Under the pieces are notes generated by a model, which was not told the origin of the DNA, ran no database searches, and saw only the letters and a program-made list of their open reading frames with translations. Source: Paraconexibacter algicola (GTDB lineage: Bacteria > Actinomycetota > Thermoleophilia > Solirubrobacterales > Solirubrobacteraceae). From it: a stretch of 64,000 nucleotides of DNA. The number at the start of each line of letters is the position of its first letter. The first letter of the stretch is position 1. Location of the stretch: contig NZ_PYYB01000001.1 of the NCBI RefSeq assembly GCF_003044185.1, positions 868,001 to 932,000 of the forward strand. Reading direction: 5' to 3'. Shown here in pieces: positions 259-30,565 of this stretch. Both the position numbers and the translations under genes were made by a program.

Positions 259-342
259 GGTGCTGACGAGCTTCAGCTCCCTGAGCGCGTCCAGGCCTAC
301 GCGGCGCGCCGATGATCAGCGGCCAGGTAGAGCTTCGTCGCC

Positions 343-2995: not shown

Positions 2996-4759
2996 ATGCG
3001 AGCCCGTGTCCGCCACGCCGTAGGCGCATACGGCGCACTGGTCGCAGGGATGACTGCCGGGCTCGCCGCGGCCCTCGCAGCTTGGCGTTATAGCGGCGAG
3101 ATTCCTCGGGACTTCTACAACGCCGCCGTCCAGATAAACCCAGTCTTCCTTGTCGCGCTTGCGCTCGAGCAGAACCTCGCCGAGACGCTGGGGACCAAGG
3201 CGCAGTACGTCAACGCGAAAGTCGATGAAACGCAGACGCGAGTCGCCCGACGTCATCGCGACCTGCGGAGACGCCTTGACGACCAGGTCCCGAACTTGCT
3301 CGACCCGACTGAGAGTTGGTCGGCACCCGCCACTCCGGAGGTCGGGGGGCAGGTTGCTGACTACCTTGACGAGGTGGCCTCACGGATCGGGCACCCGCGC
3401 GAGAAGGTCATGGGCGAAGTCATGGTCGCCGCTCTGGAACAAGGAGGGCAGGCCGCCCGGGTCCACATTCGCGATGTCGGCGCCCTTCTCGCAGCCGTCT
3501 CCGCGATGCCGACGAAGCCTGTTCACGTGCCAAGTCTTGCCGAGGCTTCCGGTGTCCGGATGCTCGACCGCGCACGTGTCGTCACCGCGTACCTCGAGTC
3601 GCACCTAGATCAAGTCGCTGACCGCGCCGCCACCTCGGCCGCTGAAGAGGCCCGAGATCGCTACGACGAGGAACGACGTCGTCGTCGTCTCTCGCTGCTG
3701 GCAGTGATCAGTGTTCTCATCCTCGGCGAAGTCGCGGCCGTCATCGGGCTTCTGTCCCCACCAGGGTTCCGTAACGCGTGGCTGTTCCCGGCGACGATGG
3801 GGTTGCTGGCGGCAGCCTTCACCACAGTCACGGTGGGTGCTCTGCGGGAACTCGCCACGGCTACGCCGGAGCCCTCTGCAGCGGGTCCGTCCGACACTTT
3901 TGCCGTACTGCAAGCATGGGACGAAGCTGCCGACACCTTCCCGGTAGGTGGCACCGCCTGGCCGCAGCGGCGCGCCCTTCTCGGCAGGGCCGAGACAATG
4001 CCACAAGCCGCGCCGGAATACGAGGTGAGGGCTGGCGCTCAGATCATGCCAGTGGAGCTCAGGCGAGTTCAGGTCGGCCCGACGGCGCCGGAGGGCCGCG
4101 TGCACGTCAGCGGCGCTCTCGACGGGATCGTCGAGCAAGAGTCTCTCTACACGTTGGTCCACGGATCCTCCGTTTCTCCATTCTGGATCGGAATAACTCA
4201 GACCGTTGTGGTGCCATTTCCGTCGGGCCGCGGTGCTGGCTTGATGCAGTGGAACTTCGACATCGAACCGCTGTACCAGCACTGGCGATCGAGGATGAAG
4301 CGGGTAACCCAGGTCACCGCAGTCGATCAGTTCTGGGATTCGCCGCGCTTGGCGGCGCAGTTTCCAGCCTCCGCCCACGCCGTCTTCGTTCCAACGGTCG
4401 CGCGCCGGCCCGCGGCGGCGCGTGCCGAGGGGCGCCGAGCGATCGCTAGCGCCAACCTACTTCGAGTCACGTGTCGATCGCGCGAGGAAGCGCTCTTCCT
4501 GACCGGCATTATCAACAGCGGGCTTTCGTCTCCTCCCGACTCCCGGCTAGGCGAGAGTCTCCGAGTCGACGCCGATTGGGTTCGTGGCTTGCCTATGTTT
4601 GACCCCACAGACCCGGTCCACGCGGACTTGGTTGCCGCTAGTTTGGAATGCGAGTCGTTCGTCGCCGCTCGGATTGCCTCGGGGAGGATCTCATGGGACG
4701 TCCTCGCTGACGGTGAGCCATTCGCGAAGCTGCAAGCGGCCGCAGCGCGCGCACTTTGA
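2996..4759 (+). CDS. Membrane protein with a methyltransferase-specificity-like C-terminus
   Basis: 587 residues. A hydrophobic segment at about 12-30 and a second at 46-58 are followed by a charged, probably coiled region (65-100) and a soluble helical region to about 230. A strongly basic run (RRRRRLS) then precedes a transmembrane pair at about 236-256 and 264-287. The last 290 residues are soluble. Their end reads SREEALFLTGIINSG (about 495-510) and MFDPTDPVHADL (about 533-545). This resembles the C-terminal target-recognition region of N6-adenine methyltransferases, where 'EALYLTAILNS' and 'FDPxxPLHxxL' type motifs recur. No methyltransferase catalytic motif (NPPY type) is present. A DNA-recognition fold tethered to a membrane protein would be unusual. 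Function unknown; it is the second membrane gene of the island and its partner at 1054 is in the same direction. Confidence 0.65.
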   Translation: MRARVRHAVGAYGALVAGMTAGLAAALAAWRYSGEIPRDFYNAAVQINPVFLVALALEQNLAETLGTKAQYVNAKVDETQTRVARRHRDLRRRLDDQVPNLLDPTESWSAPATPEVGGQVADYLDEVASRIGHPREKVMGEVMVAALEQGGQAARVHIRDVGALLAAVSAMPTKPVHVPSLAEASGVRMLDRARVVTAYLESHLDQVADRAATSAAEEARDRYDEERRRRRLSLLAVISVLILGEVAAVIGLLSPPGFRNAWLFPATMGLLAAAFTTVTVGALRELATATPEPSAAGPSDTFAVLQAWDEAADTFPVGGTAWPQRRALLGRAETMPQAAPEYEVRAGAQIMPVELRRVQVGPTAPEGRVHVSGALDGIVEQESLYTLVHGSSVSPFWIGITQTVVVPFPSGRGAGLMQWNFDIEPLYQHWRSRMKRVTQVTAVDQFWDSPRLAAQFPASAHAVFVPTVARRPAAARAEGRRAIASANLLRVTCRSREEALFLTGIINSGLSSPPDSRLGESLRVDADWVRGLPMFDPTDPVHADLVAASLECESFVAARIASGRISWDVLADGEPFAKLQAAAARAL

Positions 4760-4763
4760 GGAC

Positions 4764-4796
4764 GCGCACCTATACCTCTCCGGGGTAGAGGTGCGC
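4764..4796 (+). terminator. Hairpin after the membrane/TRD-like gene
   Basis: GCGCACCTATAC (4764-4775) pairs with GTAGAGGTGCGC (4785-4796), 11 of 12 positions. An alternative inner stem ACCTCT/AGAGGT also forms. It starts 5 bases after the stop codon. Confidence 0.55.
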
Positions 4797-5015
4797 CATC
4801 GAGATTCGCTCCAAACAAAGCCGTTGGCAACGACGGTGATGGTGCTCGGCCAGTAGGTCTGCTCTTTGCGATCGTCAGACCTCAGGACAATTCGGGTCTA
4901 GCCATGACCGGTCGACGCCTCGATCGGCGTAGACCGCCAGGAGCTGTCGATGCCCGAGTAGCCGCATTCGCTGGAACGGGCGGACAGGGCCCAGGTCTCC
5001 ACTTATGGCGCAAAC

Positions 5016-6950
5016 CTACTGCGCCCCGACGAGGTCGATGCTGGCACGCCGAGACGTCGGTTCCGAGGAGCCCGCGGAGATCGCGATGGTTCCGCTCTGC
5101 GCGCGCGCATCCATCCGAACAGCGCCGCTTCGGGCGTGTTCGCGGGCGAGCGGCAGGAGCAGGTCGCGCTCGACGGTTGCCTCGAGGTGGCGTGCGCCGA
5201 GTTCCTCGCTGTGTCCTCGGCGCGCGAGCTCGTCGATCACCGAATCGCTGACGCGGACGTCGAGCCGTGGGTGGTGAGCTTGCCAGCGGGGGAGCAACAC
5301 GTCGCGTACGATCCGGCGACTGTCCTGCAGGCCGAGGTCGCGGAAGGCGCAGGTGGCGTCCATCCGGCCCAGCAACTCAGGAGCGAAGGCGCTCTGGAGC
5401 GCGCGGGCCCGCCCGTCGGCCGACTGAGTCCCTGATGACGTGGCCGCGAAGCCGAGGGAACGGCTTGTCGATCGAGCGCGTACGTTGGTGGTGAGGACGA
5501 TGACGGACTGGGTGAAGCTGATTGGCTCTCCGGTGCTGTCGGTTAGATGGCCCTCATCGAGGACCTGTAGCAGCAGCCGGTGGATCGCGGGGTGAGCTTT
5601 CTCGATCTCGTCGAAGAGCACCACGGCTTTGGGTTGGCGGCGTACGGCGGCCAGGAAGGGGCTGGGCTGTCCGTGTCCGACGATGCCGGGTGGTGGGGAG
5701 AGGATCTTCCAGACGTCGCGCTCGGTGCTGTACTCGCTCATGTCCAGCCGCACGAGCGCGCCGGGTCCGCCGCCGAGTTCGTCGGCCAGCGCGCGGGCCA
5801 GCTCGGTCTTCCCGACCCCGGTGGGGCCGGACAGGAGGAAGGCGCCTACCGGGCGGTTGGGTCTTAGGCGGAATCCCATTGCGCCGATCGTCAGACGGTC
5901 CACGACCTCGTCGATGACGTGACCCTGGCCGATGACGCGCGCCTGCAGGCGGCCGGCCATGCCCTCGAGGCGGCGGTGGCGTTCGGCGGCCGGGACGGGC
6001 TCCGGGCCGATTGCGGCAAGCTGCGCGAAGGTCTGGCGGACGAGCGCGACCCGGCGTGGGATCGACTCGGCGCGCCTGTCGGCTCGGACTGCGGCGAGGT
6101 CGGCGGCCTCGACGGCGAGGTCGGGCATGTCGGTGAGCCGGTCGTGGGTGGTGGCCAGGGCGATGAGCTCGTCGATAATGCGCGGGTTGGCGAACCGGGT
6201 GCGAGGTCCGAGCGCCTTGCTGATGTGGACGCGGACGAGGTCGTGGAGATGTTCGCGTGCGACGGGTCGCACCGCGACGCACCCCAGCCGTGCGGTAAGG
6301 CGCGGGTCGTGGTCCAGGCGCTCCACGGGGACGTCCTGAACGAGCACGGCCCGAAACCCGGGTTCCGCACAACGGGTGTTGAGTTCCTCGACGAGCGGAT
6401 GGTCTCGGCCGTCTTTCCATTTGAGGCCGTGGACGACCAACGTGGACGCTGTGGCGATCGCCGCGTCGACGAGATGCGAGGCCTCCACGCGGCCCCGCTT
6501 CGTTTCGAAGCGCCCCAGGACCCGGTCGGGCCGCACGAGCAGGAGCGGTCGTTGTCCCGTTTCTCCGTCCACCTGGCCGGCGGCGATTCGTGCGGCGGCT
6601 CCGTGGATGACGGCCAGGCGTCCCGATCCGACGGGCCCGGCGATCAGGACGAGTTGCTGGGAGCGCAGCTGTAGGTGCTCGACCAGCCGGTCGATCTCTT
6701 GGTCGCGGCCGACGATCGACGAGAACTCGCCTGATCGCGCTTGCGCGATCAGGTCGATCGTCGCGTGCTGCAGGATCTTCTCGAACGTGGGAGCAAGCTT
6801 GCGACGCCGGGCCGACGGGGCCTCCCGGGCGCCTTCAGCAGAAGGGCGCTGATCGGCCGACCCAGCAGCGTCCTGAGCGCTCGCGCCGGCGGACGCGGGT
6901 ATGCGGTGCTTGAGACGAGGCTGCACGGGTCCTTTCGGGTGGATGTCCAT
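5016..6950 (-). CDS. ClpA/ClpB-type AAA+ ATPase with degenerate first ATPase module
   Basis: 644 residues from the ATG at 6950 (longer in-frame starts lack protein-like sequence). After a 60-residue basic leader comes a ClpA-like first module opening with FSSIVGRDQEIDRL. Its Walker A reads GPVGSGRLA (about 103-112), with Lys replaced by Arg and Thr lost, and its Walker B position reads TLVVHGL instead of an IDE motif, so it should not hydrolyse ATP. The second module is intact: GPTGVGKTELARAL (about 374-387) and VVLFDEIEKAHP (about 443). A short C-terminal small domain follows. There is no N-terminal Clp repeat and no ClpP-loop that I can point to. A protein-remodelling role is likely; substrate unknown. 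It is transcribed away from the HAD gene at 7059 across a 108-base gap. Confidence 0.8.
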   Translation of the reverse strand: MDIHPKGPVQPRLKHRIPASAGASAQDAAGSADQRPSAEGAREAPSARRRKLAPTFEKILQHATIDLIAQARSGEFSSIVGRDQEIDRLVEHLQLRSQQLVLIAGPVGSGRLAVIHGAAARIAAGQVDGETGQRPLLLVRPDRVLGRFETKRGRVEASHLVDAAIATASTLVVHGLKWKDGRDHPLVEELNTRCAEPGFRAVLVQDVPVERLDHDPRLTARLGCVAVRPVAREHLHDLVRVHISKALGPRTRFANPRIIDELIALATTHDRLTDMPDLAVEAADLAAVRADRRAESIPRRVALVRQTFAQLAAIGPEPVPAAERHRRLEGMAGRLQARVIGQGHVIDEVVDRLTIGAMGFRLRPNRPVGAFLLSGPTGVGKTELARALADELGGGPGALVRLDMSEYSTERDVWKILSPPPGIVGHGQPSPFLAAVRRQPKAVVLFDEIEKAHPAIHRLLLQVLDEGHLTDSTGEPISFTQSVIVLTTNVRARSTSRSLGFAATSSGTQSADGRARALQSAFAPELLGRMDATCAFRDLGLQDSRRIVRDVLLPRWQAHHPRLDVRVSDSVIDELARRGHSEELGARHLEATVERDLLLPLAREHARSGAVRMDARAQSGTIAISAGSSEPTSRRASIDLVGAQ

Positions 6951-7058
6951 GCCCCTCTGCGCCGCAGCGGCTCGTCGTGTGACAGCTGCGGTCCGTGCTG
7001 CAGGAGGAGGACCCGTCGGGTTGTCACATCGGTCCGCGCTGCGGAGACTGGTTGCGAC

Positions 7059-7838
7059 ATGGCCGACGTAGTGCTCTTCGATCTCGACGCGACGCTCATC
7101 CCCGAGACGACCGCCACCCGCGCCGCGTTCCTGGCCGCCGCCACGCTGGCAGCAGAACATCACGGAGTTGACGCGACCACGCTGGCCGCCGCTGCGTACC
7201 GCCACGCACGCCGTGGCTGGGCGAGCTCGCCGGCTGCGTCGTTCTGTTCGCGGATCGGGATTAGCGCCTCGGAGGGCCTGTGGTGTGCGTTTGGGGGCGA
7301 TCGGCCCGAGCTCGTCGTGCTGCGCGACTGGGCGCCCAGTTACCAGCGGGCGCCCTGGCGCGACGCCCTGTCCGACGAGGGGGTCCGCGACGAGGACCTC
7401 GTGGACGCGCTCGCCGGTCGCTTCGCTGCCGCGCGGCGTTCAGGCGTCGTGCCGTTTCCCGATGTCCTCCCTACGTTTGACCGCCTCGATGGCTCGTTCG
7501 GGTTGGGAGTCGTGACGAACGGTGCGTCGTGTCTGCAGCGGGAGAAGCTCGAGCTCGCCGCACTCACCAACCGGTTCGCGTTCGTGATCGCCTCCGGTGA
7601 CCTGGGCGTCGGCAAACCGGACCCGGCGATCTTCCGTGCGGCAGCAGACCGCGCCGCGACGGTCCCTGGCCGCATCGTCATGGTCGGTGATGACCTCGAC
7701 CGCGACGTGAACGCTGCCCGGGCCGCTGGCCTGCGGGCAGTGCATCTCGACCGCGCCGGTACCCTCGGTCCGCCGGCGATCTCGACGCTCGCCGAGCTCC
7801 CGACGGCCCTCGGCGCGATCGCGGAGGGCTGCAGGTGA
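7059..7838 (+). CDS. HAD-superfamily hydrolase
   Basis: 259 residues. Motif I is FDLDATL (residues 7-13) with the nucleophile and acid Asp. A helical cap follows; then VVTNGAS (motif II), GKPDPAIF (motif III Lys) and GDDLDRDV (motif IV). This is a complete catalytic set for a small-molecule phosphatase or dehalogenase-like enzyme; the substrate cannot be told. The ATG at 7059 was chosen because the sequence upstream in the same frame is low-complexity and unlike protein. The stop codon shares one base with the start of the phosphoesterase gene, so the two are translationally coupled. Confidence 0.85.
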   Translation: MADVVLFDLDATLIPETTATRAAFLAAATLAAEHHGVDATTLAAAAYRHARRGWASSPAASFCSRIGISASEGLWCAFGGDRPELVVLRDWAPSYQRAPWRDALSDEGVRDEDLVDALAGRFAAARRSGVVPFPDVLPTFDRLDGSFGLGVVTNGASCLQREKLELAALTNRFAFVIASGDLGVGKPDPAIFRAAADRAATVPGRIVMVGDDLDRDVNAARAAGLRAVHLDRAGTLGPPAISTLAELPTALGAIAEGCR

Positions 7839-8446
7839 TGCGGGTCGGGGTGCTCAGCGACGTGCACGGTCAGGTCGCGCTGCTTCGCCGCGCCGTGGCG
7901 GCGATCGATGATCACGGCTGCGAAGAGATCTGGTGCCTGGGCGACGTGGTCGACGCCCTCGGTGCTGCGCCGTCAGCCGATCAGGAGGAGGCGGTCGCGC
8001 TCGTGGCCTCGCGGTGCGCCGTGACGCTCGGCGGCAACCACGAGCTGTGGGCCCTGGAGCGCGGTCAGCTGTCGCATGCGACGCGGCTGGTGCTCGCGGG
8101 ATGGGCTCCTCGCGCCGAACGGCACGGTGTGCTCGCCGTGCACGCGAGCGTGATCGATCCTCTCTACGAGTTCCTCGACTCACCCCAGGTCGCCGCTGCC
8201 TCGCTGGCAGAGCTCGGCGCTCACCTTGCGCTCTTCGGCCACACCCACCACCCGGGCATGTGGGGCGCGGCCGCCGGCGTCCCCGCCCCGGTCTGGGTGT
8301 CCGCGCGCACAGCCCCGCCAGTCGACCTGCGGACCTACCAGCGCGCACTAGTAAACCCGGGGGCGATCCAGCACGACCTCCAGCCCACCTACCTGCTGCT
8401 CGACCTGACCGCCCGCACGGCCACCTGGCATCCCGTCCCGGGCTGA
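7838..8446 (+). CDS. Calcineurin-like metallophosphoesterase
   Basis: 202 residues with the full metal-binding series: SDVHG (residues 7-11), LGDVVD, GGNHE, GHTHH and NPGA. These bind two metal ions and hydrolyse phosphomono- or diesters; small single-domain members include YfcE-like phosphodiesterases. The ATG at 7838 overlaps the TGA of the HAD gene by one base. The HAD and phosphoesterase pair suggests a two-step dephosphorylation of one substrate, for example a nucleotide or nucleic acid end, but this is inference. The 176 bases after the stop contain no obvious gene. Confidence 0.88.
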   Translation: MRVGVLSDVHGQVALLRRAVAAIDDHGCEEIWCLGDVVDALGAAPSADQEEAVALVASRCAVTLGGNHELWALERGQLSHATRLVLAGWAPRAERHGVLAVHASVIDPLYEFLDSPQVAAASLAELGAHLALFGHTHHPGMWGAAAGVPAPVWVSARTAPPVDLRTYQRALVNPGAIQHDLQPTYLLLDLTARTATWHPVPG

Positions 8447-8622
8447 CCTCGGCCCGAGGACGAACCGATCACTGGGTTCGGTCGCCGTGTCACATGCTGG
8501 GCCGCAGACGCGCTGCTGGGCATGTTCGCTGAGCCCTCGCGCCGCATCACCGTTCCCGCCCCAACCCCGCAGCCGTCCCTGCCGGCACCCGTCCCTGCGA
8601 TGCCGGTCGAGGTCCCGACGCG

Positions 8623-10539
8623 ATGACCATCGTCGGTGTGCGCTCCTGGTTCATCGACCAGGACGGCGGGCTGCGCCCGCTGCACGCCGAGCTTGGAACC
8701 TGGGACGCGCCGGTCGCGACCGCTGTGTGCGACAGCAGTCCGGCAACCGGTCACGTCGCACCGGCGAGCGACTGCTCGTGCGGCCTCTACGGTTCCTATG
8801 AGCTTCCGGCCCGGACCCGTCCTGGGTGTGTCACCGGTGCGATCCAGGCGTGGGGCAAGGTCGAGCTGCACTTCTCGGGATTCCGCGCCCAGCACGCCCG
8901 GCCCGTCGCGCTCGTCCTTCCGCCCCGCGCCTCCACGAACCTGCGCCCGCGGTTGGAGCGGGCCGCCCAGCGTTACGGCGCACAGCTCGTGCCATCCCAG
9001 GACGAACTGCTGTCCGTCGCCGCCGAGTGGGGCTCTCCGGTCGCACTCCAGGACCGCCCGTTCAGCCTCCTCTCGCGCGTCGTCGCGGCGGACGACAGCC
9101 CGGATCCCGCGATGCTCGAGTCACCGGCCGGAGCACTGCAGTGGCTGTACCAGCGGACGCTCGAGCAGGCCGGCGGCCAGATGCCCGGCTTGGACCTCGA
9201 GCGGATGTCCGACGCGGACGTGGCAGATGAGCTGCTTGCCGTTCGAACGCTCTGCGAGCGGGGCATCGAGGCGACGTCGGTCACAGACGTGCAACTGGGG
9301 GCAGCGGACCGGGGCGCGGTCCTGCGTCACGTCGGGACCCTGGACGCCGCGCGGTTCCGAGGCTTCTGGGTCGCGTTGGCGCAGCGAAGTGACGGTCCGG
9401 TGGCGCGGGAGTTTATGGACGCGGGGTGTCGCGAGACGCCGGTCGTCGCACTCGCGCTCGGACTGCCCCTCTCCCCACCAAACCCGGACAGCTGGACGGC
9501 CCGCACTGCCCAGCAGCGGCTACTCACCGAACTCCAGGACCCGGAGGCGCTGCGCAGGTGTTGTGGTGCGTCCGCGGCGCAGTCGACCCGGAGATCGTGG
9601 AACGCGCGTTCCGAGGAGGCCCCGCGTTCTGGGGCGTCGAGCCGCTGCAGCGGGCCGGCAAGGCAACCGTGGCACTCGCGCAGCGTCTCGCTGATGACGA
9701 GGCACTAGCCCCGCAAGCCCGCGCCCAGGCAGCAGTCGCCGCCCGCGACACCGACCGCGGCCTGCGACTGGCGACCGAGCACCCGCGGCTGCTGCTCGAG
9801 CAGCAGCAACTGCGAAAGCTCCTTGGCCCGCTGCACTGCGCACGCATCGCAAACGAGTACGTGAAGTGCAAAAACCGCGATCCGGAGCTCGGCCTGCGAT
9901 TGGCGATCGCCCTCTTTCCCAGACCGCAGGCCGTCGGGCACGTCGCCCAACTGCTGCGCGACGCCAAGGACCGACCGGGTGAGCGGCCGCTCGCCGGGTT
10001 CACGCGGGCCGTCGTCCGCCCTCTGCGGGGCATCGTCGACGGCCAGATCGTCGCCGAACTGCTCGACGACGAACGCCTCGGCACCTTGGAGCTCCACGCG
10101 CTGCTCGAGTTGTCCTCGCGGCCGCACCCCGAGACGGCCGAGCGGCTCTGGGACAGCGGCGAAAGCCTGGACCCCAACGTGGCGATCAAGCTCCTGAACG
10201 ACGCCCACCCGCACGGCGGCCGCGTCACCCGCAAACACCTGCGCGCACACGCGACGGACTTCGACGATTGGGCCACGCCGAGAACAGCGGCAGCGATCGC
10301 CTACCTGCCCTCCACCGACCGCATCACGCTGGACTGCGCTCGCGCACTGGCCGACGCCGTCGACGCACCCACCTACCTCCGCCTGCAGGCCCTACGGATG
10401 CTCGAGCGCGGCGCCTACCGATAGCCCACGAGCTGCTCGCGGCTGACGACCTCGATCGCGACCTGCGGGCCGCGTGCACGGACGTGCTGGCCGGACGTCA
10501 CCCCAGCGACCTGACGGCCCGAATGCTCCTCACCCGCGC
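8623..10539 (+). pseudogene. Frameshifted WG-motif / helical-repeat protein
   Basis: The ATG at 8623 opens frame 1. Its first part holds a CSCGLYGSY block and a GAIQAWGKVELHFSGFRAQHARP block, which resemble the C-x-C-G-x-Y and WG-x-V-x-x-H segments of an uncharacterised actinobacterial family. Frame 1 is protein-like to about 9555. The signal then moves to frame 3 (QVLWCVRGAVDPEIVERAF) and runs through Leu- and Ala-rich helices, perhaps HEAT-like, to TAG at 10422-10424. Just before that stop it shifts again to frame 2 (IAHELLAADDLDRDL ... DLTARMLLTRAP) until about 10,540. Two frameshifts argue for decay. The first shift, in CTGCGCAGGTGTT, is not a typical slippery heptamer, so programmed frameshifting is unlikely. 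Confidence 0.6.
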
Positions 10540-10913
10540 GCCAAGGCGAGGCACAAGCCGCACCGCTTCCGCAACCGCAAGGCCGAGGCGTGGTGGGCGC
10601 TCCGGCTCAAGCTCAAGGACCGGCTGCTGGCCCTGCCCGCTGATGGGGACGACGCGGACGACCTGGCGGCGCCGTGTCCGCGACGAAGCGCGTGCAGGAC
10701 GCCGACGGCCGCACCGGCTGCGAGAGCAAGGACGACGTCCGCAAGCGGCTCGGCCGATCCCCGGATCTCGGGGACGCGCTGACGATGGCGGCGTCGGAGG
10801 AGCCCACCTACTGTGACGCGTCACCGCCGCGGTCGGAGGGGTCGGCGCGGTCGATCACCGCCGGCCTCCTCGACGAAGGCTTCAGCCCATCTCACGACGA
10901 AGCGCCCCGGTGA
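10540..10913 (+). pseudogene. Remnant of phage terminase large subunit (C-terminal end)
   Basis: Frame 1 from 10540 reads HKPHRFRNRKAEAWWALR and then LALPADGDDADDLAA. From about 10674 frame 3 continues with SATKRVQDADGR, ESKDDVRKRLGRSPD and GDALTMA. This order (FxNRRAExWW, IxLPDDD, then IESKxDMRKRxGRSPDxADAL) is the well-known end of tailed-phage terminase large subunits, including part of the nuclease domain. Only about 90 residues remain, split by a frameshift and with no ATPase domain, so it is a dead prophage scrap fused directly to the end of the preceding broken gene. Confidence 0.7.
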
Positions 10914-11182
10914 CAGGGCGCTTCGTGGTGCGGCTGATCCAGGAACTTCTTGGCGGGCGGACCAGCGCGCGATACCTGTGCGATCAGGCGATGTGGTGCG
11001 CTGGGGACGCTACAGACTTCGAAGGACGCACTTCTGCTCCCGGCGAAGCCCCTGCAAATTGCGGGACTTTCCTCGGCCCGATGTGGGTTCCGTCCGCGCG
11101 GCGATCATGATGTAGGACAGCCCTCACCGAGACCTTGGCGGGCCTCGGGCAGAGGGAACAGAAGTGCGATCAAGGAGTAACG
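10914..11182. other. Gap without recognisable genes
   Basis: No coherent coding frame is seen here. Short open frames are of mixed, unconvincing composition. The last bases carry the ribosome binding site AAGGAG (11173-11178) of the next gene. Confidence 0.4.
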
Positions 11183-11347
11183 ATGTATTTCAGGATTCGC
11201 TACGACGCCGACGGCTACCGCGCGCTCGCGTACGCCAGCAACCACCAGCTGATCTGGTGGACCGAGGGCTACGTCTCGAAGGCGGACGCGCGTCGCGCGA
11301 TCGACCTCATCAAGCGCGAGGGTCCCGGCGGGGACGTCCACCAGTAG
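11183..11347 (+). CDS. Small YegP/DUF1508-like protein
   Basis: 54 residues. The pattern FRIRYDADGYRALAYASNHQ followed by EGYVSKADARRAIDLIK matches the single DUF1508 (YegP) repeat: strand, strand, 'SE-GY', helix. YegP-type proteins are small and their role is not well defined. The start is ATG 11183 because AAGGAG sits 4-5 bases before it; a longer in-frame start upstream lacks such a site. A strong hairpin follows the stop, so it is likely a single-gene transcript. Confidence 0.75.
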   Translation: MYFRIRYDADGYRALAYASNHQLIWWTEGYVSKADARRAIDLIKREGPGGDVHQ

Positions 11348-11356
11348 GTGTGGTGC

Positions 11357-11392
11357 ACGCTCGGGGGTGGCCTGACTGCCACTCCCGAGCGT
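11357..11392. terminator. Bidirectional terminator hairpin
   Basis: ACGCTCGGGGGTGGC (11357-11371) pairs with GCCACTCCCGAGCGT (11378-11392), 15 positions with one G-T, loop CTGACT. It lies between convergent genes (plus-strand end at 11347, minus-strand end at 11407) and is followed by TTAT on the plus side. Confidence 0.8.
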
Positions 11393-11406
11393 TATCTCTG
11401 GCGCGT

Positions 11407-11661
11407 CTAGTCGCGCTGAACGACGGTGCCGGTCGGCGGGTTGTCGCGGTCTTGGAACGTGGAACGCATGCGCGGCGCAGCGTCCAGCAGCAGCATCACG
11501 ATGACCACGTCGCCGCCGCGCGCGTCGATCTGCTCAGCGGCGGCGCGAGCTGCATCGAGAGTGGAGTGGGCGCCGTAGATCTCGGTGCCGTCGCAGGAGT
11601 AGTCCACGGTCAGGAGGAACACCGGGTTGCTCACCACGACTTCTCGGACCGCGTCGCTCAT
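11407..11661 (-). CDS. Hypothetical protein
   Basis: 84 residues, not recognised. The sequence VFLLTVDYSCDGTEIYGAHSTLDAARAAAEQID looks like a strand-turn-strand followed by a helix, similar in style to small proteins that decorate phages and plasmids. The start ATG (11661) overlaps the stop of the upstream gene by four bases, so the two are cotranslated. A hairpin terminator lies 15 bases past the stop. Confidence 0.6.
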   Translation of the reverse strand: MSDAVREVVVSNPVFLLTVDYSCDGTEIYGAHSTLDAARAAAEQIDARGGDVVIVMLLLDAAPRMRSTFQDRDNPPTGTVVQRD

Positions 11662-11939
11662 CTTCCGCGTCGCTCAAGCCACGCGCTGAGCTGCGCCAAG
11701 CCGCGCTCAACCTCGGCCGCGACCGTCTCGCGGATCGGACGCCAAGCATCGGTCAGCTGCTCGAGCGCGCTCGGCTCCGGCACGGGCATCACGGTCCCGG
11801 TCTGGTAGCCGACGTGCACCAGGTCGCCGGGCTCGATGTCTGCGCCGGCGATGAGGGTACGGAGGCTGATCGGCGCACAGGGGCGTAACTGCGGCGGGCT
11901 GGAGCCGTAGTTCATCTGCTTCTGCTTCCCGCGGGCCAC
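11658..11939 (-). CDS. Hypothetical protein
   Basis: 93 residues from GTG 11939; an ATG at 11915 would give a protein eight residues shorter and also has an AG-rich stretch upstream, so the start is uncertain. The middle (GADIEPGDLVHVGYQTGTVMPVP) looks like a small beta-barrel and the end (ETVAAEVERGLAQLSAWLERR) is an amphipathic helix. No family recognised. It overlaps the 84-residue gene downstream and is divergent from the sigma-like gene at 11978. Confidence 0.5.
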   Translation of the reverse strand: MARGKQKQMNYGSSPPQLRPCAPISLRTLIAGADIEPGDLVHVGYQTGTVMPVPEPSALEQLTDAWRPIRETVAAEVERGLAQLSAWLERRGR

Positions 11940-11977
11940 GCCTCGATGGTCCTCACCGACCGAAAGGACCCGCAGGA

Positions 11978-12649
11978 ATGGAGCACCCGCCCCTGCGCGC
12001 GACCCCGCGCAGACCGCACCCCATCACGACCACCGACGACGCCCGTCGGCTGGCCACCATCGCCGTCCTGCAGTCCATCGACCGAGCCGTCGCCCGCGTC
12101 GCGCGCCAGCACGGCGACGCCATCGCCGAGGACGTCCACCTCCGCCTGCTGCGGCGCATCGACACCGGGCCAACCCTGGCCGACACGTCGTGCTGGCTCG
12201 ACGAGACCGGAGAGATCCGAGAGCTCGCACTGCGCGCCTGGATGCGCAAAGCCGCCGACGGCGAGACCAGCACCGCCTACCGCCACCGCACCGGCCTCGA
12301 CGCACTGCTCGACCTCCCCGACACCCGCGAGCCAGCGGCCCATGAGATCCCGCCTGCGGTCAACGCCGACGACGACCCGGCGGTGCTCTTGGTCAGCCTG
12401 CGCCGTGCCACCCGGCAGGTCGCGATGACGCCACGGACCCGCGAGATCGCGCTGCAGGTCCTCACCGACCGACTGGCCGGCGAGACCTTCGCGACCGCCG
12501 CCCAGCGCGCAGGGGTGCCGACCAACACCGCCACCCAGTACAGCCGCCGGCTGCTGCGAGCGGTCGCGCCGAGCCTGCAGCGCCGCGTGCGACGCGTCGT
12601 GCGCGAGCAGAAGTCGACGCTGTCACAACAGCGGCCCGCCACGCGCTGA
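11978..12649 (+). CDS. Sigma-factor-like / helix-turn-helix protein
   Basis: 223 residues. The C-terminal part (about 150-205) reads TPRTREIALQVLTDRLAGE then FATAAQRAGVPTNTATQYSRRLLRA, a helix-turn-helix like sigma region 4 that would sit in the -35 groove. The N-terminal helices (ATIAVLQSIDRAVARVARQHGD) could be a weak region-2 equivalent. The middle is acidic and unlike a standard sigma factor. AAAGGA lies 9 bases before the ATG. The gap to the membrane gene at 12659 is only 9 bases, so the two form an operon, possibly extending to the CARF nuclease. A regulator of this small cluster is plausible but inferred. Confidence 0.55.
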   Translation: MEHPPLRATPRRPHPITTTDDARRLATIAVLQSIDRAVARVARQHGDAIAEDVHLRLLRRIDTGPTLADTSCWLDETGEIRELALRAWMRKAADGETSTAYRHRTGLDALLDLPDTREPAAHEIPPAVNADDDPAVLLVSLRRATRQVAMTPRTREIALQVLTDRLAGETFATAAQRAGVPTNTATQYSRRLLRAVAPSLQRRVRRVVREQKSTLSQQRPATR

Positions 12650-12658
12650 ACAGCAGCC

Positions 12659-13555
12659 ATGAGCACTCACGACACCACCTCCACCCCACCCACCCCGACC
12701 CCTGCCGACCAGGCCGTCCGAACCACGCCGCCAGCCGCGCTCAGCGCCGTCGCCGAGCTACCCCGCCCCGTGCTGCTCACCGGGACGGGCGGCGTTCTGC
12801 TCCTGCTCGCCATGTTCCTCCCCTGGTTCCGCCTCGACGTCCCCGCGGTGGGCGGATCGCGCTCGGGGCTGCAGTCCTCGGCCCTGACGGTCGTGCCCGT
12901 CCTGCTGGCCGCCGGGGGAGCGCTGAGCGTCGCCTGGGCCGCACGCACAACGCGCACCGCACACGTCCTCGGGCGCCCAGGGTGGCACGTGACCAGCGCC
13001 GCCGGACTCCTCGCACTGATCGGCACCGTCGCCGCCGTCCTCTCCCCGCCGAGCATCCTTCCCGGGCCGGACGCGGTCAGCGGCTTCGCCTCCCTGGTCG
13101 GTCTGGACCCCAAGCCTCAGCTCGGCGTCTACCTCGCCCTCCTGGCCGCCACCGTGATCACCGCAGGCGGCCTGACCCTCCCCGCCGGCCCGCTACACGA
13201 AGGCACCAACGGCCCTGCCGGAAACATGTACCTCGCCATCCGCCGCGCCCGGGCCGACGAGAACACCGGGCTCCTAGCGTCCGCCGCGATGGGCCTCGCG
13301 GCGCCCTCCCTGGTGATCCTCGGACTCGTCCGGGACTCCGCGGCGGTGCTCACGGTCGCCTTGGTCACGGCGATCGCCGCCGTGCTCGCCTCCCGCGTCG
13401 CGCGCCGCGGCCTGCCGGCAGACGAGAAAGACCTGCGAACGCTGTCACGCGTCGGACAGGCCGGAGGCTGGACCGTCCTCGGCGCGACGCTCACGGTGCT
13501 GATCCTCACCGCGGCCGTGCTCGGGCAGGCAGCCAATGACCTTGGCGCCCTCTAA
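12659..13555 (+). CDS. Hypothetical multi-pass membrane protein
   Basis: 298 residues. A Thr/Pro-rich N-terminal tail of about 35 residues precedes hydrophobic segments at about 38-58 (VLLTGTGGVLLLLAMFLPWF), 75-92, 108-126, 155-172, 205-222, 228-246 and 275-295. The 'AMFLPWF' motif after the first segment is common in short actinobacterial membrane proteins of unknown role. No transporter signature is seen. It follows the sigma-like gene by 9 bases and precedes a perfect hairpin and the CARF nuclease gene. Confidence 0.7.
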   Translation: MSTHDTTSTPPTPTPADQAVRTTPPAALSAVAELPRPVLLTGTGGVLLLLAMFLPWFRLDVPAVGGSRSGLQSSALTVVPVLLAAGGALSVAWAARTTRTAHVLGRPGWHVTSAAGLLALIGTVAAVLSPPSILPGPDAVSGFASLVGLDPKPQLGVYLALLAATVITAGGLTLPAGPLHEGTNGPAGNMYLAIRRARADENTGLLASAAMGLAAPSLVILGLVRDSAAVLTVALVTAIAAVLASRVARRGLPADEKDLRTLSRVGQAGGWTVLGATLTVLILTAAVLGQAANDLGAL

Positions 13556-13575
13556 TCGTACCCGTGAGAGAGACT

Positions 13576-13611
13576 GTGCGGGAGTCCGCTGCCGAAAGCG
13601 GACTCCCGCAC
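13576..13611. repeat. Perfect 15-bp inverted repeat before the CARF nuclease
   Basis: GTGCGGGAGTCCGCT (13576-13590) and AGCGGACTCCCGCAC (13597-13611) are exact complements, loop GCCGAA. The right arm ends directly at the ATG of the next gene. There is no T-run. It could be a terminator for the 12659 gene, an attenuator, or a structure that hides the start of the nuclease gene. Confidence 0.85.
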
Positions 13612-14688
13612 ATGGTGAGTCCAGCACCACTCCACACCGCCGCGTTCGTCGTCGACGACCACCCCCTCGACACGTACCTCGCATGCGCCGCCCTGCGCCC
13701 CACGCAGGCGATCCTCATCCATCCTCCCGACCGCGCCGACGAGGCACAGCGACTACGCGACGTCCTCACGCGCCGCTTCGCCACGACGGCCCACTGCGAG
13801 GAGATCGGCGACAACACACACTTCCCGCAGGCCCAAGCCCTCCACGCCCGGCTGCCGGCTAACACGCACGTCCACCACACCGGCGGCGACGGCTCCCTCG
13901 CCTCAAGCCTGCGAGCCGCGCACTTCATCGCCGACCGGGCACCCCAGGACGCCTCCTGCCTGGATGAGGACCGCAGGCTCCTACGCCGAGACGACGGCAC
14001 CGACACCCCGCTCGCAGACCTCGTCCCCGCCAACGCGGTCACCCTCGAGGTCCTCATGGACCTTCAAGGCTTCCACCGCGCGCGGCCCGACACCGAGACG
14101 CAGGCCGCATCGCACGCGCTCCTGGACGCCGCCGGCCCACCACCGTGGGAGCAGGTCGCCCGGCTCGTCGACGACGGCACAACAGCAGTCGCAGTGCTAC
14201 GCCGTCACATCGAAGAAGCCCAGCCCCGCCCCAACCGCTTCACGCGCAGCCATCACCTCGAGGTCTTCCTCAGAGGACTCTTTCTCGAGTACCTGCTCTC
14301 ACGACTCATCACCCAAGCCGCACCAGGCCACGAGGTGCACACCGGCGTCCGCCTGACGCGCGACGCCATGAGCCTCGAACTCGACGTCGTCGCCATCGGC
14401 CACTACCGCCCGTACGTCTTCTCCTGCACCACCGGCCGCACCGGCAAGAACGCGAAGGCCAAAGCCTTCGAAGTCCTCGCCCGCGCCCGCCAGATCGGCG
14501 GACAGACCGCCCGCCCCGGACTCCTCGCCGCACTCGACACCCAATCAACCCCCAACGCACGACAGGTCGCCCACCTCTCCACCGTCGACCGGGACGACAC
14601 CGCCGAGCAGGTCCTCGTCGTCGAACTCACCTCCCTCGCAGCCGCCGCCGTCAACGGCAACGTCGCGGATCTTCTGCTCGCCCACTAA
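13612..14688 (+). CDS. CARF-domain nuclease of the DUF1887 (Card1/Can2-like) family
   Basis: 358 residues. The N-terminal half is a Rossmann-like CARF domain: hydrophobic strand AAFVVDD, QAILIHPP, and the loop HTGGDGSLASSL (about 89-100), equivalent to the 'TGGTK' ligand loop of DUF1887 proteins. The C-terminal half has the restriction-endonuclease-like core: GLFLEYLL (Glu about 225), LELDVVAI (Glu 256, Asp 258), then FSCTTGRTGK (270-279) and a KAFEVLARARQIGG helix. In Card1/Can2 cyclic oligoadenylate binding by CARF switches on cutting of nucleic acid. Here the usual 'CKT' Lys is Thr 273, with Lys 279 nearby as a possible substitute. ATG 13612 is preferred over GTG 13564, which would run translation through a perfect hairpin. 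No Cas10 or CRISPR array is in the window. Confidence 0.78.
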   Translation: MVSPAPLHTAAFVVDDHPLDTYLACAALRPTQAILIHPPDRADEAQRLRDVLTRRFATTAHCEEIGDNTHFPQAQALHARLPANTHVHHTGGDGSLASSLRAAHFIADRAPQDASCLDEDRRLLRRDDGTDTPLADLVPANAVTLEVLMDLQGFHRARPDTETQAASHALLDAAGPPPWEQVARLVDDGTTAVAVLRRHIEEAQPRPNRFTRSHHLEVFLRGLFLEYLLSRLITQAAPGHEVHTGVRLTRDAMSLELDVVAIGHYRPYVFSCTTGRTGKNAKAKAFEVLARARQIGGQTARPGLLAALDTQSTPNARQVAHLSTVDRDDTAEQVLVVELTSLAAAAVNGNVADLLLAH

Positions 14689-15186
14689 CCCTCAGCAGCA
14701 GACCACGGACCCGGCTGGCACACAGCCACCGCGCCGCGCGCAAGCATCAATGACGCCAGAAGACTCCCCCGAACCCCGGATCCGCGGGCCTCGGGCTCCA
14801 CGCCGCTACCAGCATGAGGTTGACGCCGCTCGCGCAACTCTCGGAGCGCCTCGTTCTCAGCCCCGCGAGGTACGCGCTTCGTGCGACCACCCTTCCCTCC
14901 AGGTGCGGCCCTCACGACGTCCACCTGGTCCCACCGGATCGGGACCGACGGGCGGGCGACAGCTGGCGAGAGCAGGATGTCCAGCAGCTCGCCGACCGCA
15001 TCCACTAGCGGGGCGTCCGCATACGGAACGACGTCGACGATCCACCGGCGGTGTTCCAGGTTTGGGTCCACGTTTCCCCGCGTCCGGTGCCATCCGCTGC
15101 TGTCTCCTGCGGACTGCGCGCGGAACCGAACGCAAGAGAGGCCCGCAAATTGCCGCTCCTGCGGCTTGCTGCGGACCTCTGCTGAG
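14689..15186. other. Gap between CARF nuclease and tRNA-Asp
   Basis: No clear gene in 498 bases. On the minus strand about 14,800-15,070 reads a protein-like stretch (RRWIVDVVPYADAPLVDAV, ELLDILLSPAVARPSV) without an obvious start, probably a remnant at the island edge. A short hairpin at 15152-15165 follows the tRNA 3' end. Confidence 0.4.
15152..15165 (-). terminator. Hairpin downstream of tRNA-Asp
   Basis: GCCGC and GCGGC arms with a 4-base loop, read on the minus strand 21 bases after the tRNA 3' end and followed by AATTT. A short, plausible tRNA terminator. Confidence 0.4.
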
Positions 15187-15260
<74 letters not shown>

Positions 15261-15358
15261 AAACGGGACCGGCAGTATGGCACGAAGTCGCGAAACGTGG
15301 CGTGCCGTGTGGCGACCGGCGCAACTCCCGGGCAGACTGGCGGTTGGAACCGTCGCCC

Positions 15359-15838
15359 GTGACCCGTCCGCGCTCCCGCATCCTCGCCGTCCTCGCGCTC
15401 CTCGCCGCCCTGCCCGCGGTGGCGTTCGCGACCGGGATCGAGGGCACGCCGCGCGACGACCTGCTCCGCGGCTCCCAGCAGGCGGACACGCTCACGGGCC
15501 TCGGGGGCGACGACGAGCTGCGCGCCTTCGACGGCGACGACACGCTGGACGGCGGACCGGGCGACGACCGCCTGCTCGCCGGCCGCGGGGCGGACACGCT
15601 GGTGGGCGGCCCCGGGGCCGACCGGCTGATCGCCGGCCCGGGACGGGACGTCCTGCGCGGCGGGCCGGGCAGCGACGTGCTCGCCGCGCGCGACGGCGAG
15701 CCGGACACGATCCACTGCGGCCCGGGCGGCCGCGACCGCGCGACGCTCGACCTCGTCGACGTCATCGCCGACGCGACGCCGCAGCGGCCGGACGGGGCGT
15801 GCGAGCTGGTCGACCGCGCCCCGCCGAAGACCGGCTGA
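15359..15838 (+). CDS. Secreted RTX-type calcium-binding repeat protein
   Basis: 159 residues from GTG 15359. A signal peptide (RSRILAVLALLAALPAVAFA, residues about 5-24) is followed by IEGTPRDDLLRGS and about six imperfect GGxGxDxL nonapeptides (GGDDELRAF, GGPGDDRLL, GRGADTLVG, GGPGADRLI and so on) that form a calcium-binding beta-roll. The end has Cys 123 and Cys 147-type residues that may form a disulfide. Such short, repeat-only proteins are common in Solirubrobacterales and lack an enzymatic domain. It lies between tRNA-Asp and malic enzyme, outside the island. Confidence 0.8.
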   Translation: MTRPRSRILAVLALLAALPAVAFATGIEGTPRDDLLRGSQQADTLTGLGGDDELRAFDGDDTLDGGPGDDRLLAGRGADTLVGGPGADRLIAGPGRDVLRGGPGSDVLAARDGEPDTIHCGPGGRDRATLDLVDVIADATPQRPDGACELVDRAPPKTG

Positions 15839-15862
15839 CCGCCGGGCCGCCCGCGCGCGAGC

Positions 15863-17197
15863 TCAGAGCCCGGACGGCGCCTGGTCGGGGCGGGCGTGCC
15901 CCTCCTCCAGCGCGGCGGCGTGCACGGCCTCCGCCACGCGCGTGTGCACGGCGGCCTCCAGCGCGTCGGGCACGAGGTCGTCGCCCTCGGTCAGCTCGCT
16001 GATCGCGCGGGCGGCCGCGAGCTTCATCCCGGAGGTGATGCGGTCGGCGCCCGCCAGCAGCGCCCCGCGGAAGATGCCCGGGTAGCCGATCACGTTGTTG
16101 ACCGAGCGCCCGTCGGCGGCGAAGCCCGCGCCCGCGGCGAGCGCGGCGTCCGGGTCGATCTCCGCGATCGGGTTCGTCAGCGCGAGGATCGCCTGGCCCG
16201 GCCGGACCATCGACGGGGTGATGAGGCCGGGACGACCGGTGGTGGCGACGACGATGTCCGCGCGCGCGAACACGTCGTCCATCGTCGTGACCTCGATGCC
16301 CGCCTCGCCCGCGCGCCCGTGCGAGTCCCCGTTGGGGTCGAACGCGACGACCGCCGCAGCCCCGGCCTCGGCCACGAGCGCGGCGATGCCGTAGCCGGCC
16401 GCGCCGAGGCCGAGCTGGCCGACCGTCACCTCCCCGAGGTCGCGGCCGAGCGCGCGGCAGACCGTCAGCACGGCGGCGACCGACACGACCGCGGTGCCGT
16501 GGACGTCGTCGTGCATGACCGGCACGCCGAGCCGCTCGATCAGGCGCCGCTCGATCTCGAAGCACTCGGGCGCGCTGATGTCCTCGAGGTGGATGCCCCC
16601 GAACGACGGGGCGATCCGCACGACGGTCTCGACGAACTCGTCGACGTCCTTCGTGTCCACGAGCACCGGCACCGCGCTGATCCCCGCGAACTGCGAGTAG
16701 AAGACCGCCTTGCCCTCCATCACCGGCATCGAGGCGACCGGGCCGATGTCGCCGAGCCCGAGCACGCGCGAGCCGTTGGTGCAGATCGCGACGGTCCGCC
16801 CGATCGACGTGAACTTCGCGGCCAGCTGCGGGTTCTCCGCGATCGCGCTGCAGACGCGCGCCACCCCCGGGGTGTAGACGTCGCGCATCTCCTGCGGCGT
16901 GCGCACCGGGGTGACCGCCTCGGTGCGGAGCTTGCCGCCCTCGTGGCGCAGGAACGCGCGGTCGTGGTGCCAGACCAGCCGCACGCCCTCCAGGCCGGAG
17001 AGCGACGCGGCGAGCTCGGCGCCGTGCTGCGGGTCGCGGACCTCGACCGTGATCTCGCGGTCGGTCAGCTCGCGGCCGAGGTGGATCGTGACGATGTCGC
17101 CGATCAGGCCCTTGTGATCGGCGATGACCGCCGCGACCTTCTGGAGCTGGCCGGGCTTGTGCGGGACCTGCAGCTTGTACGTGACGTCGAGCGGCAT
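15863..17197 (-). CDS. NAD(P)-dependent malic enzyme with N-terminal ACT domain
   Basis: 444 residues; oxidative decarboxylation of malate to pyruvate. Residues 1-80 (YKLQVPHKPGQLQKVAAVIADHKG ... split here by a regulatory fold) are an ACT-type ligand-binding domain. The malic N-domain follows with TPGVARVC and TNGSRVLGLGDIG, catalytic Lys in GKAVFY, metal-binding EDISAPECFEIE and HDDVHGTA. The NAD-binding domain has GLGAAGYGIA and ends with NNVIGYPGIFRGAL. The length fits the short bacterial type plus ACT. A TACCGT box 9 bases before the ATG suggests a leaderless transcript. It is divergent from the P450 gene across a palindrome. Confidence 0.92.
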   Translation of the reverse strand: MPLDVTYKLQVPHKPGQLQKVAAVIADHKGLIGDIVTIHLGRELTDREITVEVRDPQHGAELAASLSGLEGVRLVWHHDRAFLRHEGGKLRTEAVTPVRTPQEMRDVYTPGVARVCSAIAENPQLAAKFTSIGRTVAICTNGSRVLGLGDIGPVASMPVMEGKAVFYSQFAGISAVPVLVDTKDVDEFVETVVRIAPSFGGIHLEDISAPECFEIERRLIERLGVPVMHDDVHGTAVVSVAAVLTVCRALGRDLGEVTVGQLGLGAAGYGIAALVAEAGAAAVVAFDPNGDSHGRAGEAGIEVTTMDDVFARADIVVATTGRPGLITPSMVRPGQAILALTNPIAEIDPDAALAAGAGFAADGRSVNNVIGYPGIFRGALLAGADRITSGMKLAAARAISELTEGDDLVPDALEAAVHTRVAEAVHAAALEEGHARPDQAPSGL

Positions 17198-29301: not shown

Positions 29302-29323
29302 GCGGCGATCACCGGGGACCACC

Positions 29324-30565
29324 GTGACCGAGATCCCGCAGCACCTGATCGACCAGATCACCGCCGGCCGCTGCGTCGCGTTCGTCGGGGCGGGCTTCTC
29401 CGCCCCCGCGGTGCCCGCGTGGAAGGCGCTGCTCGACGGGCTCGCCGAGAAAGCGGCGCTCGACGCCGACCAGGCCGCCTGGCTGGACCAGCTCATCCAC
29501 CAGGGCGGCCACCGCGACCTCGAGGCCGCCGCCCAGGTGCTCCAGGTCGCGATGGGCGAGCAGTTCGACCCGGCGCTCGCCGAGGTCCTCGTCGAGCGCG
29601 GCCACCCGGAGCGGATCGCCGAGCGCCGCCGGCTGCTCGCCGGGATCCCGTTCGACGCGATCCTCACCACGAACTTCGACCACTTCCTGATCGGGGACGT
29701 GCCCGGGCCGCAGGCCTACCAGCGGATCCTGCGTGACCCGCCGCACCGCTGGTGGGAGCCGCGCTTCTGGGAGGGGCAGGAGGGCGCCCCGGTCATCAAG
29801 CTCCACGGCGAGGTCGGCCCGATCGGGGACGCCGTCGTCTTCACGCAGCGCGACTACCGCGAGCGGCTCTACTCGAGCCCCGCCTACATGACGTTCCTGC
29901 GGTCGCTGTTCGCGACGAACACGGTCCTCTACATCGGCGTGTCGTTCACGGACGCCTACCTCAACGAGCTGCGCAGCGAGGTGCTCGCGATGCTCGACCA
30001 CGAGGCCGACGACGACCCGGTCGCCTACGCGCTGCTCGCCGACGTGCAGCCCCACCAGGAGCGCTACCTGCGCAGCCACGAGGGCCTCGGGGTCCTGGGC
30101 TTCGACACCGCGGGGATGACCGACTGGAGCGGGTTCGAGGACCACCTGCGCGCGATCCACGCCGCGACGAACCCGCGGGCGATCCTCGGTCGAGCCCTCG
30201 CCGACCGCACGATCCTGTGGGTCGACGGCGAGCCCGACGACACCTCCTACGGGGCGGCGCTCCTGCGCGACGCGGCCGCGGACGCGGGCGGCCGCACGAC
30301 GATCGCGTCGGTGCGCACGGTCGACGAGGCGCTCGCGCGGATGCGGGCGGCGGCGCCGGACCTCGTGCTGCTCGACGGCCCGCTCGCGGAGGCGACACTG
30401 ACGGCGATGCGCGCGGAGGACCTGCGCGCCCCCGCGGTCGTGTTCTCGCGGACCGGCGGGACGGGCGGGATCGTCGACCGGCGCGCGGCGATGGCGCTCG
30501 GCGCCACCGACGCGCTGACCGAGTGGGGCGACCTCTTCCGCGAGGTCGCCCGGATCCTCAGCTGA
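29324..30565 (+). CDS. SIR2-like NADase domain fused to a receiver-like domain
   Basis: 413 residues from GTG 29324. The first 285 residues are a SIR2-type NAD-binding domain: VAFVGAGFSAPAVPAW (about 18-33), ILTTNFDHFL (about 113-122), VIKLHGEVG (about 156), FTQRDYRERLY and VLYIGVSFTDAYL. In defence proteins this fold depletes NAD. From about 293 a two-component-receiver-like fold begins: TILWVDGEPDD, then LVLLDGP with an Asp at the phosphorylation position (about 351), VVFSRTGG and GATDALTEW. The conserved receiver Lys is replaced (TEW for TKP), so it may be a pseudo-receiver that responds to binding and not to phosphorylation. No membrane segments. No partner defence gene adjoins. Confidence 0.82.
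   Translation: MTEIPQHLIDQITAGRCVAFVGAGFSAPAVPAWKALLDGLAEKAALDADQAAWLDQLIHQGGHRDLEAAAQVLQVAMGEQFDPALAEVLVERGHPERIAERRRLLAGIPFDAILTTNFDHFLIGDVPGPQAYQRILRDPPHRWWEPRFWEGQEGAPVIKLHGEVGPIGDAVVFTQRDYRERLYSSPAYMTFLRSLFATNTVLYIGVSFTDAYLNELRSEVLAMLDHEADDDPVAYALLADVQPHQERYLRSHEGLGVLGFDTAGMTDWSGFEDHLRAIHAATNPRAILGRALADRTILWVDGEPDDTSYGAALLRDAAADAGGRTTIASVRTVDEALARMRAAAPDLVLLDGPLAEATLTAMRAEDLRAPAVVFSRTGGTGGIVDRRAAMALGATDALTEWGDLFREVARILS

Follow-up and report, generated by a model that had tools for sequence, protein, structure and literature searches.

How is a SIR2-type NADase controlled when the domain joined to it has the fold of a response-regulator receiver? The gene at the centre of this work, found in a 64,000-nucleotide stretch of DNA (the window), raises this question. 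A sequence-only reading had recognized SIR2 motifs followed by a receiver-like fold. It proposed that such a partner, unusual for SIR2, would tie NAD loss either to two-component or to binding-type signalling, and it suggested structure prediction and a survey of similar fusions. Here we describe the two halves of the protein, its relatives and the state of the receiver pocket across the family, and weigh the readings of its mechanism.

Results

The fusion gene and its surroundings

The features of the gene are collected in Table 1. Its GTG start is consistent with the N-termini of the relatives described below. On the 5ʹ side lie genes for a TetR regulator and an enoyl-CoA hydratase, both in the same direction as the fusion gene, with a gap of 22 bases between the hydratase gene and the fusion gene. 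A convergent gene for an MPAB/Lcp-type oxygenase follows on the 3ʹ side. No defence cluster was visible among these neighbours, and no histidine kinase gene adjoining the fusion gene was recognized in the annotated part of the flanks. The GC3 of the fusion gene was 0.99, the same as that of the neighbour genes; because its composition matches theirs, recent transfer is not visible. Comparison with empty sites within the genus gave no information, as the flanking genes have not stayed side by side in those genomes.

Table 1. Features of the fusion gene, in window coordinates (aa, residues of the encoded protein; rows, aligned family sequences)
Feature	Position	Strand	Basis
SIR2/pseudo-receiver fusion gene	29324..30565	+	GTG start, 413 aa plus stop; ORF list
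Candidate ribosome-binding site GGGGAC	29314..29319	+	A few bases 5ʹ of the GTG; sequence reading
SIR2_2 NADase-type domain, aa 6-283	29339..30172	+	Pfam, PDB sequence profile, fold matches
GAGFS nucleotide-binding motif, aa 22-26	29387..29401	+	GAG in 17/17 rows reaching the site
TTNFD motif, aa 115-119, with Asn117 corresponding to the catalytic Asn	29666..29680	+	Asn in 20/20 rows reaching the site
KLHG motif, aa 159-162, with His161 corresponding to the catalytic His	29798..29809	+	His in 20/20 rows reaching the site
Pseudo-receiver domain, aa 295-413	30206..30562	+	AlphaFold2 pLDDT 93.1; receivers in fold searches
Asp301, first acid of the receiver pocket	30224..30226	+	Asp in 20/21 rows; Gly302 next
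Asp351, phospho-acceptor column	30374..30376	+	Asp in only 3/21 rows

Elsewhere in the window, the product of positions 13564-14688 (+) matched the CARF_PDDEXK model of PADLOC (E 8.5e-74), and we take it to be a Card1/Can2-like CRISPR ancillary nuclease. No CRISPR array was seen near this gene among the repeats listed for positions 1-16000. GC3 was 0.91 or lower for the ORFs to the left of a tRNA-Asp gene (15186-15260, -) and about 0.96-0.99 for most of those to its right. Because of this step at the tRNA-Asp gene, positions 1-15260 look like a genomic island integrated there. In addition to the CARF nuclease, the putative island holds a calcineurin-like phosphoesterase and an AAA_2/DolB-like ATPase.

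The N-terminal half belongs with antiphage-type SIR2 NADases

The Pfam family SIR2_2 matched residues 112-252 of the window protein with E 6.1e-21. All three motifs named in the sequence-only reading were found where it had placed them (GAG of GAGFS at residues 22-24, TTNFD at 115-119, KLHG at 159-162), and the pocket has both of the catalytic residues on which that reading depended, Asn117 and His161. These residues and the GAG are kept in every family row that reaches them (Table 1). In the alignment with ThsA, Asn117 falls on N112, an important residue of that protein, and the counterpart of the His is H152 (excerpts of PMC7272460). These two ThsA residues and the Asn of Avs5 (excerpts of PMC12931631) give a precedent for NAD cleavage.

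When the single protein was used as the query, the PDB sequences nearest to the SIR2 half were SeThsA (7uxt), KomC and other ThsA chains. The family profile likewise found SeThsA 7uxt best (E 2.3e-21), with KomC 9v0g at E 1.4e-19. An AlphaFold2 model of the whole protein, made from a 15-row alignment, had a mean pLDDT of 82.6 and matched ThsA, KomC and DSR2 in structure. By PADLOC, the SIR2 half of the window protein was nearest to ThsA and LmuA, and the profiles of LmuA (best 4e-28) and ThsA (best 8.8e-25) matched all 15 family members scanned. The window protein has the SIR2_2 fold together with the GAG, Asn and His of antiphage-type SIR2 NADases, and its N-terminal domain would hydrolyse NAD once triggered.

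The C-terminal half is predicted to fold as a receiver

Pfam Response_reg matched residues 306-399 with E 0.043, under its cut-off. When the C-terminal 129 residues were modelled alone with AlphaFold2 from 15 family sequences, a (beta-alpha)5 fold was obtained at a mean pLDDT of 93.1. Foldseek with this model gave a best E of 7.2e-7, and nearly all of the 50 matches listed were solved receivers, the sole non-receiver among them being the cobalamin-binding protein 4jgi. With VIA-align, the best match to a solved receiver had a Z of 16.2 at 1.6 A over 109 aligned residues, and a profile built from the C-terminal halves of the family found response regulators among PDB sequences (E 6e-8). The receiver fold that had been claimed for the last 120 or so residues is confirmed, far beyond chance, by structure prediction, fold searches and the profile. 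SLOG, TIR and other Rossmann domains were rejected as the identity of this half because the structure matches listed were receivers, the absence of other folds from such lists not being proof against them. Beyond the SIR2 core and the receiver, neither Pfam nor the model revealed a further domain able to act as a sensor.

The sequence-only reading was also right that there is an Asp at the phosphorylation site without the conserved Lys: Asp351 is present, alongside Asp301 and Ser375, and the beta5 stretch contains no Lys. The window protein has the canonical (beta-alpha)5 receiver fold and lacks the full set of five pocket residues of canonical receivers, since Gly302 stands at the second-acid position and the Lys is missing. 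A receiver without at least one of these five residues is defined as a pseudo-receiver (section 3 of PMC12632262), and the window protein is one. It is not an aspartate-less receiver, as it carries Asp351, whereas 18 of the 21 family rows are.

The fusion recurs in a rare and scattered family

A degenerate DNA pattern for GxSFxDxYLNE, taken from the window protein, was scanned through the collection genome_contigs and gave 35 loci. By tblastn, 18 of these were relatives, each with an E of 2e-25 or lower; for the remaining 17, nothing matched at E 1 and they were taken as chance. The conservation of residues 205-215 in this set is by construction, since they form the harvest motif, and relatives without GxSFxDxYLNE were missed. 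Fifteen of the 18 relatives span both halves; for the other three (L079, L064 and L057), the stretch examined contains only part of the gene. A one-off assembly artefact is ruled out by the recurrence of the fusion in 15 loci across both halves.

The nearest relatives are L056 (71%) and L073 (65%; a Nocardioides MAG). The other relatives come mostly from Myxococcota or ‘Deltaproteobacteria’, with a single Planctomycetota and a single Nitrospirae MAG, so that the relatives overall are chiefly from Myxococcota and a few actinobacteria. The L056 contig is titled Bifidobacterium breve, but its genome (G622) is a 3.7-Mb MAG with three fragments of the family, which is probably mis-binned or mixed. 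In a copy from Acidimicrobiia (L079 7340-7998, L104 5930-7000), the reading frame shifts after the GAG region and before the TTN motif, so that the gene is in two pieces, through either true breakage or an assembly error. Together with L045, which has an early stop, and the partial L064 and L057, this copy makes up the broken or cut copies.

Of 329 Myxococcota genomes searched with the family profile, 10 matched with an E of at most 1e-30, and in 8 of these the match covered both halves. Among 245 genomes from the order to which L073 belongs, only its own was found, and in the class of the window two of 299 genomes were found, one through the gene itself and one through a match in the SIR2 half only. 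Among the 8 genomes of its genus, the genome of the window alone was positive. With the single protein as the query, 8 of 232 genomes of its own order matched (own included), otherwise in the SIR2 half only or the C-terminal half only, and 5 of 396 genomes of the phylum (own included), where the matches lay in the SIR2 half. Besides the gene itself, only SIR2-only or receiver/ABC-type matches were found in these searches of order and phylum. The low counts in Myxococcota, in the order of L073 and in the class of the window show that the family is rare and scattered.

Defence genes often travel in phages, viruses and plasmids. No relative with the fusion was found in the plasmid collections or in the phage and viral collections. 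A plasmid collection yielded 31 records, in which the matches listed fall in the SIR2 half, with 70% of the query placed in the best of them. Scans of genome_contigs and viral_contigs with the single protein as the query, and two pattern scans of viral_contigs followed by tblastn, gave no relative.

The phosphotransfer pocket is incomplete across the family

Pocket residues were counted in 21 family rows, with the columns defined by MAFFT and by HMMER alignment to PDB receivers. These rows are without the partial L064, the cut copy in genome G787 and the SIR2-half-only match in G854; for L079 its longer form, L104, was used. The acceptor column holds His in ten rows, Asp in three, Cys in three, Ser in two, and Gln, Asn and Arg in one each, the Asp being limited to the window protein and its two nearest relatives, L056 and L073. 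The first acid is nearly invariant (Table 1). In the second-acid column, 20 of the 21 rows have Pro, Ala, Gly, Ser or Arg; the exception is a Glu in L104, the frameshifted copy, which lacks the first acid. None of the 19 rows reaching beta5 has the Lys there.

Other positions are kept. All of the 15 rows compared have W299, D301, P370, G393 and A394. An N-N pair follows the first acid in 14 of the 17 non-actinobacterial rows with alignable sequence, and all three actinobacterial rows (the window protein, L056 and L073) have D-D in the first-acid loop. Judging from these invariant residues and the retained N-N pair, the pseudo-receiver domain is not a dead tail.

Because pocket residues are missing from the family rows, the family proteins are, on their aligned sequences, pseudo-receivers by the published definition, and most are Asp-less (excerpts of PMC12632262). 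The two-component link proposed in the sequence-only reading finds no support here: the acceptor Asp occurs in 3 of 21 rows, and no intact row has the second acid or the Lys. On pocket composition we reject a canonical two-component output for the family, for which classical two-component control is unlikely. The other half of that proposal, binding-type signalling, is the reading that we favour for the domain.

Evolution of the two halves

In a tree of 19 rows, rooted at the midpoint and with 9 of its 16 inner branches unresolved, the actinobacterial trio forms one clade (100/100) nested in a larger, mostly myxobacterial group. This places the Asp-bearing sequences among Asp-less rows. We lean towards the acceptor Asp having been regained in the trio, with retention as the alternative.

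Mean identity was 0.35 in the receiver half versus 0.44 in the SIR2 half, and in 112 of 120 pairs the receiver half had the lower value. Faster divergence is common in the sensor parts of immune proteins. When the receiver profile was run against 13 genomes, matches beyond the fusion scored 2e-9 or weaker, and the next-best ones that were read in frame were ordinary receivers with Asp and Lys; L142, L143 and L144, for which the frame read was not that of the receiver, were excluded from this reading. As the other in-frame matches are ordinary Asp/Lys receivers, the pseudo-receiver looks private to the fusion in those 13 genomes.

Genes near the relatives

All-against-all BLAST of 154 neighbour ORFs from 20 loci found no neighbour family common to more than two loci, and some of the two-locus pairs were shadow ORFs, the ORF calling being crude. 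NUDIX genes stand directly upstream of the fusion and in the same direction in L097 (5425-6003, +) and L075 (2389-3312, -); in L075 the NUDIX and fusion ORFs overlap by a few bases. In L103, from the Planctomycetota MAG, an ADP-ribosylglycohydrolase ORF (2831-4216, +; 2woc, E 3e-36) overlaps the end of the fusion as called. The ADP-ribose-related neighbours of these three loci were picked out only post hoc and serve as leads.

A further alignment, A4, took in most of the 119 neighbour ORFs of at least 130 aa, several of the omitted ones overlapping the family gene; its 96 rows include the window protein and a few frames read differently. PADLOC matched proteins among the 96 to PD-T4-6, MkoA, HEC-06 and Orf5, most of them not assigned to a locus, and defence genes may lie near some relatives. 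Pfam HATPase_c matched two of the 96, and a motif scan pointed to one histidine-kinase-like gene; it belongs to L104, where it lies apart from the family gene and on the other strand.

Discussion

Comparison with known systems

Like ThsA, the window protein has an N-terminal SIR2 domain with matching Asn and His, followed at the same chain position by a domain of Rossmann-like topology. The second domain of ThsA is, however, a SLOG domain of about 193 residues (284-476; excerpts of PMC7272460), whereas that of the window protein is a receiver fold of about 119. Across Thoeris the second domain is SLOG or transmembrane rather than a receiver, and no ThsB/TIR gene was seen adjoining the window gene, whose neighbours are the TetR, enoyl-CoA hydratase and MPAB/Lcp genes. 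The SIR2 half of all 15 members also matches LmuA of Lamassu, but the window protein covers only positions 6-267 of the 433 in that profile. No SMC-like LmuB is an immediate neighbour of the window gene; the neighbours of the relatives were judged for LmuB by their most frequent Pfam families only. With no partner gene or matching second domain, membership of Thoeris or Lamassu is rejected.

For sensing, KomC relies on a separate partner, DSR2 on a long C-terminal region and Avs5 on a STAND module (for Avs5, excerpts of PMC12931631). To our knowledge none of the three carries a receiver. All three share their SIR2 fold with the window protein.

On the receiver side, the pseudo-receivers or aspartate-less receivers of ShkA, CikA, KaiA and RitR likewise combine the receiver fold with an incomplete phosphotransfer pocket. 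Kinases, clock proteins and DNA-binding domains have been described as the outputs of these domains, whereas the output here is SIR2. Neither of two papers checked for the word mentions SIR2. The cREC domains of phages are divergent receivers that have been connected with NAD/ADP-ribose chemistry but never with histidine kinases; they are said to keep the catalytic Asp residues, to occur mostly in phages and to be associated with genes for Nudix proteins, RNA ligases and sirtuins (excerpts of PMC7824862 and PMC9503650). On these descriptions, our family resembles them as a divergent receiver in a putative NAD/ADP-ribose context without a histidine kinase, but its acceptor Asp is mostly lost and its domain is fused C-terminal to SIR2. 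Two Asp are present in the window protein but not across the family. Receivers in conflict systems have been proposed to be kinase-independent nucleotide switches (excerpts of PMC8195603).

A full-text search, with subscription literature mostly outside it, found no paper on a SIR2-receiver fusion, which agrees with the earlier view of the receiver as an unusual partner for SIR2. The SIR2-pseudo-receiver architecture is apparently undescribed.

Readings of the mechanism

The reading that we favour, at slightly better than even confidence, is that the protein is a solitary NAD-cleaving effector of the antiphage SIR2 class, probably antiphage itself, with the pseudo-receiver as a phosphorylation-independent input. 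On a trigger, the SIR2 domain would hydrolyse NAD, as its fold and intact catalytic residues suggest. The pseudo-receiver, standing where ThsA carries its SLOG sensor, would be an input or assembly switch that works without phosphorylation by a histidine kinase; it may bind a ligand or a protein partner, or shift the oligomer state, and so release the SIR2 domain. Ligand-controlled pseudo-receivers have precedents, such as the action of c-di-GMP on that of ShkA (section 20 of PMC12632262). Because it fits the scattered, single-gene distribution, we infer a horizontally acquired conflict module, probably antiphage. Weighing against this reading are the absence of a visible defence cluster around the window gene, its native composition and the lack of family members in the phage, viral and plasmid collections searched.

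It is possible, although we hold it only tentatively, that the receiver fold is a receptor for a second messenger or metabolite, for example a nucleotide or an ADP-ribose derivative, and gates the NADase as SLOG does for ThsA. The ligand site would then be the rebuilt pocket, made of Asp301, the N-N or D-D pair and the His or Asp in the acceptor column.

It is doubtful that the pseudo-receiver is only a scaffold for dimers or filaments, with a trigger such as a phage protein sensed elsewhere on the protein. Assembly itself has parallels, as helical assemblies of BcThsA and KomC are found among antiphage SIR2 structures according to the structure titles, FAM118B forms filaments (excerpts of PMC12700824), and receivers and pseudo-receivers often dimerise (excerpts of PMC12632262). 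However, the searches showed no third domain in the protein to which the sensing could be left.

If the pseudo-receiver tuned a regulatory sirtuin (a deacylase or ADP-ribosyl transferase) that serves ordinary metabolism rather than defence, this would suit the housekeeping neighbours and native composition of the window gene, and the NUDIX genes (L097, L075) and ADP-ribosylglycohydrolase (L103) hint at ADP-ribose metabolism. We consider this unlikely, since the SIR2 half matches the NADases ThsA, KomC and DSR2 best and the occurrence is rare and scattered.

Phospho-control of the actinobacterial branch, in which an orphan kinase or a small phosphodonor acting on Asp351 would switch the SIR2 NADase, is quite improbable: although the window protein has Asp301, Asp351 and Ser375, L056 and L073 keep the acceptor Asp within a monophyletic trio (100/100), and phosphorylation may persist where DD, T or K is lost (excerpts of PMC12632262), Gly302 replaces the second metal-binding acid, the Lys is missing, the acceptor Asp is absent from 18 of 21 family rows, that Asp looks secondary because the trio lies among Asp-less rows in the tree, and no adjoining histidine kinase was recognized in the annotated flanks.

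Implications

Among the SIR2 immune effectors that destroy NAD, a growing set, the fusion brings in an unexpected regulator. How pseudo-receivers switch their output without phosphate is called a mystery for bacteria (abstract of PMC12632262), and this is a natural family in which to test such phosphate-free switching, with NAD loss as the readout. The actinobacterial trio, with an acceptor Asp that the rest of the family lacks, provides a ready comparison for whether phospho-control can be regained.
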